Shown one piece after another: positions 49,069 through 53,748 of a DNA stretch of 64,000 nucleotides. The notes below the pieces were generated by a model. The model worked only from the letters and a program-made list of their open reading frames with translations. It had not been told where the DNA came from and made no database searches. Origin of the DNA: Crocinitomicaceae bacterium (lineage in GTDB: Bacteria > Bacteroidota > Bacteroidia > Flavobacteriales_D > Crocinitomicaceae); assembly GCA_021325675.1 (NCBI GenBank), contig JAJTCM010000001.1, positions 620,001-684,000 on the forward strand, given 5' to 3'. A program made the translations under genes and the position numbers. The number at the start of each line of letters is the position of its first letter. Within the stretch, counting starts at the first letter, position 1.

Positions 49069-49509
49069 ATGACGGGGCCCGGACTACATAAGGTGAAGTG
49101 TGACATTTCGGAAGTTACTCTGCTAACGGAAGATATCCTGCTGATCGAGATCCAGCCCGAAAAAGAGTTCAAACTCAGGGATTTTAACCAATTATTTGAA
49201 GCAGCCAAACAAATCGGCGGCGGGCGAAAATTCTACAACCTGTGTATCGTAGGCGCGCACACGCTTCCCTCCCACAAAGCACGCGAAGCATCAACGAGCA
49301 AGGAGGGCTGCATTTATAAAAAGGCGGATGCTTTTGTGATTCATTCTGCTGCCCAAAAGTTCGTTGGTAACGTTTACCTGAAATTTCATAAGCCCTGCGT
49401 CCCCACTAAATTTTTCACCAACCGCGAAAAAGCGGAAAAATGGCTGCGGGAAATGATAAAAGCTGAAAAACAGCAAGCTGATGAATTCCTTTCTTATCCT
49501 GCGAGATAA
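49069..49509 (+). CDS. STAS/SpoIIAA-like partner of the SpoIIE phosphatase
   Basis: 146 residues from ATG 49069, 2 bases after the SpoIIE stop; the frame extends upstream into that gene without support. Alternating strands and helices (VTLLTEDILLIEIQPEKEF, LRDFNQLFEAAKQI, YNLCIVGAHTLPSH, ADAFVIHSAAQKFVGNVYL) fit a STAS-like alpha/beta fold of the DUF7793 type that is recurrently linked to SpoIIE proteins in Bacteroidota. The classic phospho-acceptor Ser of SpoIIAA is not obvious. Probably the regulatory target or output of the phosphatase (context inference). Its end overlaps the end of the convergent dltA-like gene by 16 bases. Confidence 0.65.
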   Translation: MTGPGLHKVKCDISEVTLLTEDILLIEIQPEKEFKLRDFNQLFEAAKQIGGGRKFYNLCIVGAHTLPSHKAREASTSKEGCIYKKADAFVIHSAAQKFVGNVYLKFHKPCVPTKFFTNREKAEKWLREMIKAEKQQADEFLSYPAR

Positions 49510-50966
49510 ATCTCCTGTAATTTCTTTTTGTCCGCCTTACCGTTTTGGTTGAGCGGCATTTTATCCAGGACCCTGATATCTGAAGGAACCATATAATGGG
49601 GAATGGAAAGCTCCAGCCTGTTCAGGATATCATGGCGTGCATCCAGGCTTGTTCCTGGTTTTAATTCCACGAGGCTCACGATTTTTTTTACTTCATCATT
49701 CCTGCGAAGGGCGATCGTTTCCGACTTGACAACATACTCAATCTCATCAATTTTCGCCGTGATCTCATTCAGCTCGATCCTGTAGCCATGGAGCTTCACC
49801 TGGTCGTCATTGCGTCCTTTGCAAAACAGCATACCGTCTTTCATATACCCGTTATCACCGGTGCGAAAAGCGCGCTCGCCATCAATTTGAATGAATTTTT
49901 GTTCGTTCAGGTCCGGGCGGTTCAAATAGCCGATCGAAACATTTTTTCCGGCGATAATAATCTCATCGCCATCGATCAGTATCCGGCTTTCTGCTTTGGG
50001 GTAGCCCACAGGCAGCGGGTTGTACTCATTGATCTCTTTTTCCGTGATTTCGATGAGCGTTGTTGCCACAGTTGCTTCCGTTGGCCCGTAAGTATTATAA
50101 ATCCTGGTGTTACTGTAATTTTCCTTCAGGGATTTAGCCAAAATATTAGGGAGCATTTCGCCGCAAAAAAGGAAATACTTTAAACCTGAAGCCAGCTTGG
50201 GATCAGACATCCTGGAGTAAATAAATGCAAAGGAAGGTGTTGAAACCCAAACGGTTCCCCCGTGCTGAGCGATCCGCTCCAGGAAAACATCCGGCTGCTC
50301 GGTAATTTCTTTCGAATTCAGCAAAAGCGTTGCCCCAAGCGCCGAAAAAGTCATTAATTCATAGACAGAAAGGTCAAAGCTGAACAAGGCGACATTGATA
50401 AATACATCCGAAGCTGAAAAACCAAAATCGCTTGTCATCCAGCGCACGAAGGACTGTACGGCTTCCGTAGAAATCTGTACTCCTTTTGGTTCGCCGGTGC
50501 TACCCGAGGTAAAAATCGTATAAACGAGCGGATCATTTGCTTTTTCAGCAGCGTAAGGCATTTCTTTTTGTGTAATCAGCCTGCAGTTATTTTCTTTCAG
50601 GTGAATTTCCGCCGTTCCTTCCAGGTTGAGCGGTCCTTCAGAACAATTGATAACCAGGTCAACGGACGCAATGCTTACAACTGATTCGATACGCTGGCGC
50701 GGATACACCACATCAACCGGTATATAGCTCATTTCCAGCTTCATGCAGGCGTAAACGGCTACAATCATTTCCGCTTCCTTATGCCCATAAATGATCACCG
50801 GGTTTTGGAGTGAAGTCAGCTTATTTTCGGTTAAAAATTCACAAAAGCGATCCACTTCCTGCTGAAAATCAAGCCAGCTTAAGGTGCGCGATTCGCTGAT
50901 AACTGCCGCTTTTCCGGGCTGAATATCCAACTCTGTAAACTCTTTTTGACTGAATGAGAACTTCAT
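49494..50966 (-). CDS. dltA: DltA-like amino acid:carrier-protein ligase
   Basis: 490 residues. Adenylation-domain motifs: FTSGSTGEPKGVQIS (phosphate loop), FCGEMLPN, YNTYGPTEATVA, FRTGDNGYMKDG, GRNDDQVKLHGYRIEL and the catalytic Lys motif PLNQNGKADKKK near the C-terminus. FCGE and LPVGYPK are the form seen in DltA, D-alanine:carrier ligases, where the Cys lines the D-Ala pocket. It should activate an amino acid (D-Ala by analogy) and load it on the carrier encoded at 53524. Last gene of a five-gene operon, 2 bases after the MBOAT gene. A different amino acid cannot be excluded. Confidence 0.85.
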   Translation of the reverse strand: MKFSFSQKEFTELDIQPGKAAVISESRTLSWLDFQQEVDRFCEFLTENKLTSLQNPVIIYGHKEAEMIVAVYACMKLEMSYIPVDVVYPRQRIESVVSIASVDLVINCSEGPLNLEGTAEIHLKENNCRLITQKEMPYAAEKANDPLVYTIFTSGSTGEPKGVQISTEAVQSFVRWMTSDFGFSASDVFINVALFSFDLSVYELMTFSALGATLLLNSKEITEQPDVFLERIAQHGGTVWVSTPSFAFIYSRMSDPKLASGLKYFLFCGEMLPNILAKSLKENYSNTRIYNTYGPTEATVATTLIEITEKEINEYNPLPVGYPKAESRILIDGDEIIIAGKNVSIGYLNRPDLNEQKFIQIDGERAFRTGDNGYMKDGMLFCKGRNDDQVKLHGYRIELNEITAKIDEIEYVVKSETIALRRNDEVKKIVSLVELKPGTSLDARHDILNRLELSIPHYMVPSDIRVLDKMPLNQNGKADKKKLQEIYLAG

Positions 50967-50968
50967 AC

Positions 50969-52204
50969 TTAAATCAATTTTCCGCTAAATATATAAATGG
51001 AGAAGGCTACGGCGTGGAAGAAAATAAAAATGGAAAGGTAACGCACGGCAACCGGGTTTAATTTGCCGAAAACGATATCCCTGCCCTGCTTCTTACATTG
51101 GTAGCTGTAATAATTATGAACGACCGAATAAAGCCCGAATAAAACCCCGCTCAGGATGAAATGCAGCTCAAAGCCGTTCCAGAAACCCATCAGCGTAAAG
51201 GTCAGCAGTAAAGCCGCACTTTGCCGTTGAATGGACGTTTTGAATGTTTTTTTCGTGGTGAAATGCTTGAAAATCGGCTTAAAAAAGTAATCGTTGAGCC
51301 AATCGCCCAATGTTTTATGCCAGCGGTGCCAGAATTCCTTGGGGTTCTCCGCCAGGAAAGGCAATCTGAAGTTATAAGGCACTTTAATCCCGAGCATGTG
51401 ACCAAAGCCCATCGCCAGGAGCGAATATCCTGCAAAATCAAAAAACAAATAAAACAGGTAAGAATACATATAAGCCAGGTGATAGCCCAGGCCATGCAGT
51501 TGCCCGAGGTGTTCCAGCACTAAATCATGAATGGCCGTCGCCAGGATATATTTGTAAAGCAATCCGCGGATGAAGTAATCACAGCCCGCCAGGAAACTTT
51601 CTGAATTAAGACTGCTGAACCCTGCATCGAGATCGCTGCGAAAGCGCCTGTAACGGTCAATCGGACCGATCAGCAAGGTAGCAGGAAAAGCCATGAAACT
51701 GAAATAGCTGATCAAGCTTACGTCGTCATTTTCGGCTTCGTCATAATGCACCTGGATCATTTTAAAAGTTGCGTAAGAAATCCCCGCGATCTGGAAAAGA
51801 GAGGTTATATTTTTGATTTCCGGCAACACGTTGAACAGCTTCATGAAAAACAAGGGCAGAATGTACAGGATAATCATTTTCAACCCGCCGGCTTTCCTTT
51901 TTTGGGACAGCTGCCTGAACAGAACATAGCCATACAGGATAAACAAAATAATGTGGAACGGCTTCGTAAATAAAAGGAAAATATAAAGCAGGGAAATCCC
52001 GAAAATCAAAGCAGTGTAAGTCTTTGAAGCGTTTTGACGAAATTTCAGCTTAAAGAGAAGCGCAACTGCAACCACCAGGAAAATAAACACGTAAAACTGC
52101 ATGTTTGAAAAAGGCAGGGTTGCATGAAAATCTTTAAAGCTATTGGTGAGGCTTTGCAAACTAAAAGATAAATATTCAGGAATATGGATGGAAAGTATCT
52201 GCAT
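50969..52204 (-). CDS. dltB: DltB-like MBOAT acyltransferase with altered WHG motif
   Basis: 411 residues, about eleven membrane helices. MBOAT motifs: LLIGPIDRYRRF (about 177-188), GFGHMLGIKVPYNFRLPFLA, and EFWHRWHKTLGDWLNDYFF with His293/His296. In the region where DltB and other MBOATs carry the catalytic His (GxWHG), this protein reads GFWNGFELHF: Asn343 replaces it, and a His stands five residues later (His348). The nucleotides (tgg aac ggc) are clear. It should move an acyl/aminoacyl group across the inner membrane from the carrier to the microprotein or final acceptor. Preceded 8 bases upstream by the DltX-like gene. Confidence 0.87.
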   Translation of the reverse strand: MQILSIHIPEYLSFSLQSLTNSFKDFHATLPFSNMQFYVFIFLVVAVALLFKLKFRQNASKTYTALIFGISLLYIFLLFTKPFHIILFILYGYVLFRQLSQKRKAGGLKMIILYILPLFFMKLFNVLPEIKNITSLFQIAGISYATFKMIQVHYDEAENDDVSLISYFSFMAFPATLLIGPIDRYRRFRSDLDAGFSSLNSESFLAGCDYFIRGLLYKYILATAIHDLVLEHLGQLHGLGYHLAYMYSYLFYLFFDFAGYSLLAMGFGHMLGIKVPYNFRLPFLAENPKEFWHRWHKTLGDWLNDYFFKPIFKHFTTKKTFKTSIQRQSAALLLTFTLMGFWNGFELHFILSGVLFGLYSVVHNYYSYQCKKQGRDIVFGKLNPVAVRYLSIFIFFHAVAFSIYIFSGKLI

Positions 52205-52212
52205 GCTTTTTC

Positions 52213-52362
52213 TTAAAATTGTTGGTACACAAAGTCTACTTTCGACCTGGACTCACTTGGTGTTTCAGGGTAAATAACATGCTCGATATCAATTACGTAT
52301 ATCAAAATATAGCCCACAAGCAACAGCAGGTAAATGATGCCGTTCCTGAAAAATTTATTCAT
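52213..52362 (-). CDS. dltX: DltX-like membrane microprotein
   Basis: 49 residues, ATG at 52362, TAA at 52213. One N-terminal membrane helix (FFRNGIIYLLLLVGYILIYV, about 4-23) is followed by an extracytoplasmic tail ending in DFVYQQF. The end F-V-Y-Q-Q-F resembles the C-terminal FIYNEF motif of Gram-positive DltX, whose Tyr is an acyl-transfer site according to reported work; the equivalent here is Tyr46. The ATG overlaps the dltD stop by 8 bases, and the stop is 8 bases before dltB. That position, immediately upstream of the MBOAT gene, fits co-translation. Length and topology also match DltX (about 47-50 residues). Confidence 0.8.
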   Translation of the reverse strand: MNKFFRNGIIYLLLLVGYILIYVIDIEHVIYPETPSESRSKVDFVYQQF

Positions 52363-53527
52363 AATATGTCGTGTATAAAAAACGGTTCATTTTCAGCCAG
52401 CCCACGTCGCCCATGTGCATGACATCATTGAGCGTTCCCGGTTTGTATTCTTTTTTATTGCTGACAAACAGGTTCAGGAAGGGGAAGTTATTTTTTTCAA
52501 GGAGGGCAGTAATTTCTTTCAGTACCGGATCAAAACGGTCAAGGTGCTGGTAATGATGCGGGTTCATGCCCTGCATGATAAAACACGGCTCGGCGCCCGA
52601 TTTTTTAAGCAAATCAACCAAAAGATACAAATCCTGCAGCTCGCGGTTGTTTTTGGTATTTAATTCCGTAAACTCGGGGCTGAGCAGGGTCCCGTCAGCT
52701 TGCTTGACGTAGAGCTTGAAATACTCGTCATTGATGAAGCGCGAATTGCTTTTTACGGAGGCAACGAATTTTTCCTCCAAAAACCGGATATTTTTGTCCC
52801 AGGAATAAGAAGTTTTTTTGGCAGGAAGCTGCTTATTAGCTGTCAGGACATAATTTACCCGGTCGCATGTCGCAGCGCGTTCCTTGAAATAGTTTCCTAA
52901 TACAGGAAGATCGGCGTATTTGTAAAAATCGGTCAGGTACCGGATTTCGCTGCTTGGGCTGTCAATCAGGTCGTACTGCAACGAAAGGAATTTGCCGATT
53001 TCTTTTTTCGCGTTGTCCGGCACCGCTTTATCACTGATGATTTTTTTCAGGAAATTGGGCCTGACGAATTCCAGGAAAGCTTCAATATTAGTTCCCTCCG
53101 ATTCATACCATCCCGGGCTTAATAAAATACAAACCTTCGCACCTTTCAACTCTTCACGCATAGCCAAAAGCTGGCAGTAAATCGCAAAAGTCTGGTGGTG
53201 CGCATGCCCGAAAGCGTTCAAACGGATTCCCAGGCTGTCCGGCATAAAAGTGTATGGAATATACGCACTTTCCGTCGTAAGCTCGGATGAGCCCATGAGC
53301 GTGATCCCGTTTTTGTCCCGGAGTGAGCCCAGCAGCTCAAGCTCCTGCTGCACGCTGTCCCGGAGATTAACCAGTAAACCGCGCTCGCTTATTTTCCCGC
53401 CGCGAACAGTGATTGTTTTGCCCCCACCGGAATTAACCGCAAATTTCAGCACAAGGCTGCAAAGCAGCAGCGCAAGGATCAATGCAGCTAAAAACGGGAG
53501 AAAGTGATATGCCAGGATTTTTCTCAA
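52355..53527 (-). CDS. dltD: DltD-like protein
   Basis: 390 residues with TTG start at 53527; the codon overlaps the carrier gene stop (TTGA), there is an in-frame stop just upstream and the next Met is far inside the domain. One N-terminal membrane anchor (about 7-30) and an SGNH-like hydrolase domain: GITLMGSSELTTES (Ser80/81, catalytic region), GHAHHQTFAIYCQ, ILLSPGWYES, and LNDVMHMGDVGWLKMN with the Asp/His pair. This follows the Gram-positive DltD pattern (GSSE, FQ, SPQWF, DxxH-x-GxxGW). DltD is thought to aid transfer of D-Ala to the final acceptor outside the membrane. Confidence 0.85.
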   Translation of the reverse strand: MRKILAYHFLPFLAALILALLLCSLVLKFAVNSGGGKTITVRGGKISERGLLVNLRDSVQQELELLGSLRDKNGITLMGSSELTTESAYIPYTFMPDSLGIRLNAFGHAHHQTFAIYCQLLAMREELKGAKVCILLSPGWYESEGTNIEAFLEFVRPNFLKKIISDKAVPDNAKKEIGKFLSLQYDLIDSPSSEIRYLTDFYKYADLPVLGNYFKERAATCDRVNYVLTANKQLPAKKTSYSWDKNIRFLEEKFVASVKSNSRFINDEYFKLYVKQADGTLLSPEFTELNTKNNRELQDLYLLVDLLKKSGAEPCFIMQGMNPHHYQHLDRFDPVLKEITALLEKNNFPFLNLFVSNKKEYKPGTLNDVMHMGDVGWLKMNRFLYTTYYE

Positions 53528-53748
53528 TTCAGCTTATTTTGGATGTATTTTACGATCAGGTCAACCGTTTCAAAGTTCTCCAGGGTAATGTCGTTCATCG
53601 GGATTTTAATAGCGTATTCGCTCTCAATTTCAACAACCAGCTCAACAATAGTAATGGAATCCAATATTTTATCCGTCCAAAGTAAATCGTCATTCTTCAC
53701 TTTTACGAAGGCAATTTCCTGTATTTTTTCCTTGATGAATTCTTCCAT
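53524..53748 (-). CDS. dltC: DltC-like acyl/aminoacyl carrier protein
   Basis: 74 residues, ATG 53748, first gene of the operon. The four-helix carrier fold has the phosphopantetheine site Ser31 in DKILDSITIVELVVEIE, in the LLDS form of DltC rather than the DSL form of AcpP. It is acidic. It should receive the activated amino acid from the DltA-like ligase and pass it to the MBOAT. The stop overlaps the dltD start. A -7-like TATATTTG lies 10 bases upstream of its ATG. Confidence 0.88.
   Translation of the reverse strand: MEEFIKEKIQEIAFVKVKNDDLLWTDKILDSITIVELVVEIESEYAIKIPMNDITLENFETVDLIVKYIQNKLN

Follow-up and report, generated by a model that had tools for sequence, protein, structure and literature searches.

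A candidate DltX-type shuttle microprotein encoded in dlt operons of Gram-negative bacteria

A 49-residue open reading frame in a dlt operon of a Crocinitomicaceae bacterium very probably encodes a Gram-negative branch of DltX, that is, a membrane microprotein acting as an acyl shuttle. The ORF (52213-52362, minus strand; MNKFFRNGIIYLLLLVGYILIYVIDIEHVIYPETPSESRSKVDFVYQQF) lies in the window, by which we mean the whole stretch of 64,000 nucleotides that was analysed. It starts with ATG, contains a single N-terminal hydrophobic stretch and ends in FVYQQF, in which Tyr46 (codon 52225-52227, minus strand) is the proposed acyl carrier, a role assigned from the literature on DltX and PatA. Its start overlaps the dltD-like gene by 8 bases, and the dltB-like gene starts (at 52204) 8 bases beyond its stop. 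The first-pass annotation had put this ORF forward as a DltX homologue; the 8-base overlap, the 8-base gap before the MBOAT gene and the position of Tyr46 that it gave agree exactly with the ORF coordinates. The 49 codons and the FVYQQF end were also as claimed, and the minus strand, which had been left unstated, completes the description.

Gram-positive bacteria attach D-alanine to their surface through the Dlt pathway, and the window carries a Gram-negative copy of the operon. The microprotein is encoded together with homologues of dltA, dltB, dltC and dltD in a five-gene operon, in which adjacent genes on the minus strand specify an acyl carrier protein (ACP), DltD, the microprotein (X), DltB and DltA, in this order. 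The ACP (74 aa; 53524-53748, minus strand) matches PF00550 and carries Ser31 in an LDSI motif. Its position in the operon suggests the role of DltC; several NCBIfam carrier families match it alike, the DltC model PRK05087.1 with 36.5 bits (cut-off 68) and the others with at most 39.6 bits. The carrier serine motif read LDSI, MDSI or IDSI in 33 of 37 operons and IESL in one, LSSI (two operons) and VDSM (one) being found by eye. The DltD-like SGNH protein (390 aa; 52355-53527, minus strand) matches PF04914 (E = 2.5e-46, 159.1 bits, cut-off 22.7), the DltB-like MBOAT (411 aa; 50969-52204, minus strand) matches PF03062 (E = 1.6e-20, 74.2 bits, cut-off 27) and the DltA-like adenylating ligase (490 aa; 49494-50966, minus strand) matches PRK04813.1 with 427.5 bits (cut-off 476). 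DltA, DltB and DltD of the window all score under the NCBIfam equivalog or subfamily cut-offs.

If the microprotein is a genuine component of the system, relatives should encode it in the gap between their dltD-like and MBOAT genes, as the first-pass annotation had implied. A survey of 240 Crocinitomicaceae genomes with a DltD model (E up to 1e-8) gave matches in 16 genomes, each over most of the model length. The ORF directly followed DltD and preceded DltB in all 16 of these genomes with full-length DltD, and all the encoded proteins ended in F[VI]YQQF. DltA came next in 15 of the 16 family loci (it is cut in L027 and lies in two frames in L051), and in L028 the contig ends inside DltB. L024 was set aside, and three loci with weak DltD matches (L036, L043 and L044), in which an MBOAT match was not found, were dropped. 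A genome collection was also scanned with a 79-residue DltB fragment; of 94 stretches that were confirmed, the 80 best were kept, and several genomes are common to the 16 family loci and the 80 scan loci. A tail-bearing ORF preceded DltB in 76 of these 80 loci (best 80 of 94), and in the remaining four (L074, L077, L093 and L119) the contig begins inside DltB. The hosts of the scan loci comprise Bacteroidota, Dickeya, Pectobacterium, Photorhabdus, Enterobacter, Candidimonas and others.

The gene order was D-X-B-A-C in 37 and C-D-X-B-A in 32 of the best 80 of 94 scan loci, hence one of the two in 69 of 80; three loci read D-X-B-A, four showed small deviations and four were cut by the contig. 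The system is uncommon: PF04914 matched in four of 395 genomes sampled from the phylum, two of them above the cut-off. Among 369 genomes of the class to which the Dickeya genome belongs, the single match was that Dickeya itself, a result uninformative on operons lacking X.

Both sets together contain 68 distinct microproteins, and all 68 end in [FY]-x-Y-[QA]-[QKN]-F, with Tyr at position -4 and the terminal Phe invariant and the first Phe replaced by Tyr in three. The commonest tails were FEYQKF (24), FVYQQF (19), FIYQQF (12) and FEYQQF (6), and the rarer ones YEYQQF (3), FVYQKF (2), FVYAQF (1) and FVYQNF (1). The predicted conservation of a C-terminal [FY]-x-Y-x-x-F and of its Tyr was thus borne out. 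The ORFs were recognised through a tail motif pattern, such that another tail would have registered as a missing ORF; every locus reaching far enough had a tail-bearing ORF, which demonstrates that the tail is constant. The microprotein gene is subject to purifying selection: when 27 Enterobacterales sequences were compared, 222 of 351 pairs showed a synonymous difference of 0.1-0.6 and gave a median dN/dS of 0.135, all usable values lying below 0.5, and the variable sites in the last 37 codons numbered 24, 10 and 34 at codon positions 1, 2 and 3, respectively.

Hydropathy predicts a single-pass membrane protein, the best 19-residue value being at least 1.6 in 67 of the 68 distinct microproteins. 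In 61 of 68, the segment preceding the hydrophobic stretch had a higher net charge than the segment following it, which fits an orientation with the N-terminus inside and the C-terminus outside. A PDB search with the microprotein gave chance-level matches only.

Several loci call for separate comment. In Symbiopectobacterium (L125:6692-7252), DltB is an open fragment of 186 codons and the microprotein frame is open, which looks like symbiont gene decay. The record names of L066, L075, L076, L081 and L103 (Kuenenia, Chryseobacterium, Glaciecola) conflict with the tree or the family, and these records are likely mislabelled or contaminated. A plasmid of Klebsiella electrica carries a complete D-X-B-A-C operon (L055:3565-7617) amid insertion sequences. 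All of this operon recurs on a plasmid of Enterobacter cloacae (100.0% identity) and 55% of it on one of Klebsiella pneumoniae, and a near copy of it was not found in E. coli genomes. A plasmid search with the window DltD (E 1e-3) gave no match, though DltD genes of this kind are present there.

We compared the microprotein with DltX of Firmicutes. The window protein had no Pfam match at E up to 10 and did not attain the gathering score (25 bits) of PF12459. This model was touched by 11 of 45 Gram-negative rows (best E = 7.5e-4, unrelated models appearing from 0.0039 on), and four Firmicute DltX controls from plasmid records all passed, with 57.6-72.6 bits. NCBIfam gave no DltX match for the window protein and likewise none for the Firmicute controls; its silence on the window protein therefore means little. 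The tails were alike, as the first-pass annotation had noted: the Firmicute DltX sequences that were fetched ended in FIYNEF (three of four) or YIYNDF (one of four).

Profile comparison did link the microproteins to Firmicute DltX. Aligned by hhalign, the 45 Gram-negative rows matched the four Firmicute DltX sequences with a probability of 93.5% (score 33.6), and with 90.7% (score 28.1) when the last 8 columns were cut from both profiles, with the caveat that short hydrophobic helices may align without common descent. Control scores were at most 13.9 in 40 shuffles of all columns, at most 16.0 in 40 shuffles of the body with the motif kept, and 13.8 with the body reversed; the probability of the shuffles did not exceed 9.9%. 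The helix region, beyond the motif, thus matches Firmicute DltX. The enterobacterial profile alone did not match Firmicute DltX (2.9%); it matched the Bacteroidota profile with 95.4%, though with only 57.1% after the motif had been cut. Because the full-set profile links to Firmicute DltX, yet most of the Pfam comparisons and the enterobacterial-only one fail, the microprotein is, as judged from these alignments, a divergent DltX branch mostly beyond the reach of the Pfam model. Together with the conserved locus, the profile comparison supports the earlier proposal that Gram-negative dlt systems contain a DltX-type microprotein. That it is easily missed by annotation is illustrated by the lack of a Pfam match for the window protein and by the label 'hypothetical protein' given to the Klebsiella electrica homologue. 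PMC5541007 describes two fully conserved residues of DltX, a Leu in the helix and a Tyr in the tail. The Tyr is kept; an invariant Leu was present neither in the 45 Gram-negative rows nor in the four Firmicute rows, and its position could not be placed. The literature matches listed include no report of DltX in a Gram-negative bacterium, and we make no claim to a first report.

The partner of the microprotein, DltB, proved unusual at its predicted active site. The window DltB covers nearly the whole of TIGR04091, the DltB equivalog model, with 265.2 bits (cut-off 375). Its AlphaFold2 model (pLDDT 91.6) displays the MBOAT fold; the nearest structures are those of DltB (8jem, TM 0.80; 6bug, TM 0.79), and its PDB matches are DltB, PORCN and HHAT. 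The site of S. thermophilus DltB contains His289 and His336, the latter called invariant (PMC11035591), and PMC12148441 speaks of a histidine universally conserved across all MBOAT proteins and required in DltB and PatA. At the position of His336 the window DltB has Asn343 (51176-51178, minus strand), which is Asn in 40 of 40 alignment rows, and at that of His289 it has His296 (51317-51319, minus strand), which is His in all 40 and is the proposed sole catalytic histidine. Asn occupied the His336 position in all 15 family DltBs covering the site, which were found through DltD. It did so in all 80 scan loci (best 80 of 94) as well, 72 of which match a search pattern demanding Asn, the other eight matching only another pattern and having Asn too. 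The alignment itself comprises the window and 39 scan-locus DltBs, most of them found via the Asn-requiring pattern, and all have Asn. The DltB of the Klebsiella electrica plasmid, found with the full-length protein, has Asn as well. In the same table, His stood at both positions in three Firmicute DltBs, five fused MBOATs, the Leptolinea MBOAT and the two MBOATs accompanied by a 37-residue protein. No further His was invariant across the 40 aligned DltBs. Asn343 replaces His336; therefore, His296 is the only invariant histidine left and is likely the base of these DltBs. DltB His363 was considered as a replacement base and rejected: it is His in 37 of 40 rows and Tyr in three, and the predicted secondary structure places it 16 residues along the following helix, probably distant from the site.

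In a DltB tree of 46 rows, the 30 Asn-type DltBs formed one group (99/97), which joined six Firmicute DltBs (99/93), and seven fused MBOATs stood apart (100/100); the tree is midpoint-rooted, Leptolinea and the 37-residue type are long branches of unsure placement, and Niallia is absent. Mammalian HHATL (GUP1) is said to lack the MBOAT histidine and to be inactive. The loss of the histidine itself is thus not unheard of in MBOATs, and what is new is Asn throughout a DltB group with an otherwise complete pathway. This natural MBOAT family without the supposed catalytic base makes the assignment of the base directly testable.

DltD and DltA of the window retain the residues expected of them. The window DltD model (pLDDT 93.5) is nearest to DltD structures, best 7dxm (TM 0.63), and Ser81, Asp368 and His371 are invariant in 39 of 39 rows; against TIGR04092 of NCBIfam, the protein scored 115.8 bits, below the cut-off of 150. 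Window DltA has Asp198 at the position assigned to the amino group in B. cereus DltA (Asp in 34 of 34 rows) and Cys268 at the position of B. cereus Cys269, which is reported to contribute to the preference for D- over L-alanine (PMC4176424). The 34 DltA rows, covering 28 of the 37 scan loci with DltA, had Cys in 16, Ile in 9, Ala in 5 and Met in 4 at this selectivity position, and the three Firmicute controls among these rows all had Cys. With such variety there, the cargo may therefore differ between branches. Unlike the DltA of its near relatives, that of L067 (7284-8798) has Ala in place of Cys and a weaker match to window DltA, and its X, B, D and C stay close; a replacement of the ligase with a change of cargo is possible at this locus.

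The operon, the motif and its conservation, the similarity to DltX, the DltD triad and the Asn in place of His are features read from the sequences, and they can be assembled into a relay. DltA would charge the ACP with an amino acid, in this case probably D-alanine, and DltB would transfer the acyl group to Tyr46 of the FVYQQF tail on the periplasmic side. This tail would then swing to DltD, whose Ser81-Asp368-His371 site would accept the acyl group and esterify a polymer of the envelope. The Gram-negative host of the window is not expected to have teichoic acids. For soft-rot bacteria, lipopolysaccharide has been suggested as the target (PMC5541007). According to PMC12148441, the Tyr of DltX receives the acyl group from DltB and passes it to DltD, and DltX forms a complex with both. 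We infer the acylation of Tyr46 from such published work on DltX and PatA, and a complex of B, X and D, the cargo and the polymer are likewise proposed by analogy.

We considered whether the tail might instead have arisen independently of Firmicute DltX, for instance by splitting from fused MBOATs. Fused MBOATs of the same phylum do bear F-I-Y-F-x-F tails, the enterobacterial profile misses Firmicute DltX, and its match to the Bacteroidota profile falls to 57.1% without the motif. Yet the similarity of the full set to Firmicute DltX persists with the motif removed (90.7%), and the Asn-type DltBs group with those of Firmicutes (99/93), apart from the seven fused MBOATs (100/100), in the midpoint-rooted tree. 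An independent origin of the shuttle appears improbable to us.

Slightly less probable again is that the microprotein is a structural subunit which holds DltB and DltD, Tyr46 carrying no acyl group and the acyl group taking another route since the usual His is gone. The chemistry of a DltB without the histidine required in MBOATs could indeed differ, and the motif could be conserved for binding in the DltB funnel; however, the parts of the relay are kept, namely DltB His296 (40/40), Tyr at -4 (68/68) and the DltD triad (39/39). A chance or relic frame in an intergenic gap would fit the small size of the ORF and the absence of a family match for the window protein, but all 16 family genomes and 76 of the 80 scan loci have the ORF, its median dN/dS is 0.135 and its tail is constant; that idea is left with a negligible probability, and we rejected it. 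A Gram-negative DltX acting as an acyl shuttle is the reading that we retain.

Other MBOATs carry the motif themselves. A fused C-terminal FxYxxF was found on the MBOATs of L037, L038, L041, L042 and L053. A shuttle motif fused to the window MBOAT was considered and rejected, this DltB ending in SIYIFSGKLI, without FxYxxF. The MBOAT of L053 (4511-6166) is the second MBOAT of the window's genome, with the fused tail RPFLYNNF and the usual WHG histidine.

A different arrangement was seen in L039 and L040, two loci with weak DltD matches, which encode an MBOAT, an SGNH protein and a 37-residue protein ending in FMYADF; a carrier or a ligase was not found within the 11-12 kb examined. The L040-type SGNH protein occurred in five of 34 genomes of the genus concerned, a related one within Bacteroidota, and a 37-residue ORF was present in all five (L039:5475-5588, L040:6226-6339, L150:2657-2770, L152:1383-1496 and L154:266-379), following the MBOAT-SGNH pair. 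The tail was FMYADF in four and FLYADF in one, the latter on a short separate contig that retains no more than the end of the SGNH gene. None of 296 genomes from the phylum gave a match to the L040 SGNH protein. The profile of the 37-residue type, made from two sequences, matched the Firmicute, Bacteroidota and enterobacterial DltX sets with 39.9%, 59.0% and 1.4%, respectively. By their sequence and gene context, these microproteins would constitute a second class of separate shuttle, whose profile similarity to DltX is not established. They bear on a statement in PMC12148441 according to which a DltX-like microprotein is absent from MBOAT-SGNH pathways outside Dlt. Finally, on a Chloroflexota (Leptolinea) plasmid, a 47-residue ORF ending in LWIYQGF (L064:3472-3615) immediately precedes an MBOAT that bears no fused tail; an SGNH gene was not seen by eye in the 9 kb around this MBOAT.

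On balance, we favour a broader reading in which Gram-negative Dlt is a branch with a separate DltX shuttle and a rewired MBOAT site (His to Asn), a single His activating the shuttle Tyr, and in which separate shuttles extend beyond Dlt. The 37-residue type would then serve MBOAT-SGNH pairs devoid of ligase and carrier, and the Leptolinea 47-residue protein would perhaps serve the MBOAT next to it. The rewired site, with Asn for the 'universal' His and the second-site His kept, would invert the Asn/His pair found in ACAT1, DGAT1 and PORCN. A DltX-type shuttle would supply Gram-negative Dlt with the component that explains the passage of the activated amino acid across the membrane. In soft-rot bacteria, Gram-negative Dlt systems have been linked to resistance against polymyxin; mutation of dltB in Dickeya dadantii resulted in 99% mortality when survival in polymyxin was assayed (PMC3544676). 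The comparison covered two other species of the genus, D. oryzae (L108) and D. undicola (L105), and both carry the microprotein and a DltB with Asn.

The microprotein resembles Firmicute DltX (PF12459) in its size of about 40-50 residues, its single N-terminal hydrophobic helix, its place in a dlt operon and its C-terminal F-x-Y-x-x-F with Tyr at -4. It differs in lying between dltD and dltB, whereas in L058, L060 and L061 DltX precedes dltA, in its tail, [FY][VIE]Y[QA][QKN]F as opposed to FIYNEF, in its Gram-negative hosts, and in its partner DltB, which has Asn for His336. With the fused MBOATs of the PatA type, which are paired with an SGNH protein, it would share the proposed Tyr relay from MBOAT to SGNH (PMC12148441). 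In the PatA type, as described there, the motif is on the MBOAT, the donor is acyl-CoA and no carrier protein takes part, whereas the window system has the motif on a separate microprotein and possesses a ligase and a carrier protein. The dlt genes of Dickeya, for which the main text of PMC3544676 names dltD and dltBAC and does not mention dltX, and those of Pectobacterium are reported to confer resistance to antimicrobial peptides including polymyxin (PMC5541007, PMC3544676), and they share with the window the same operon and the same DltB group.
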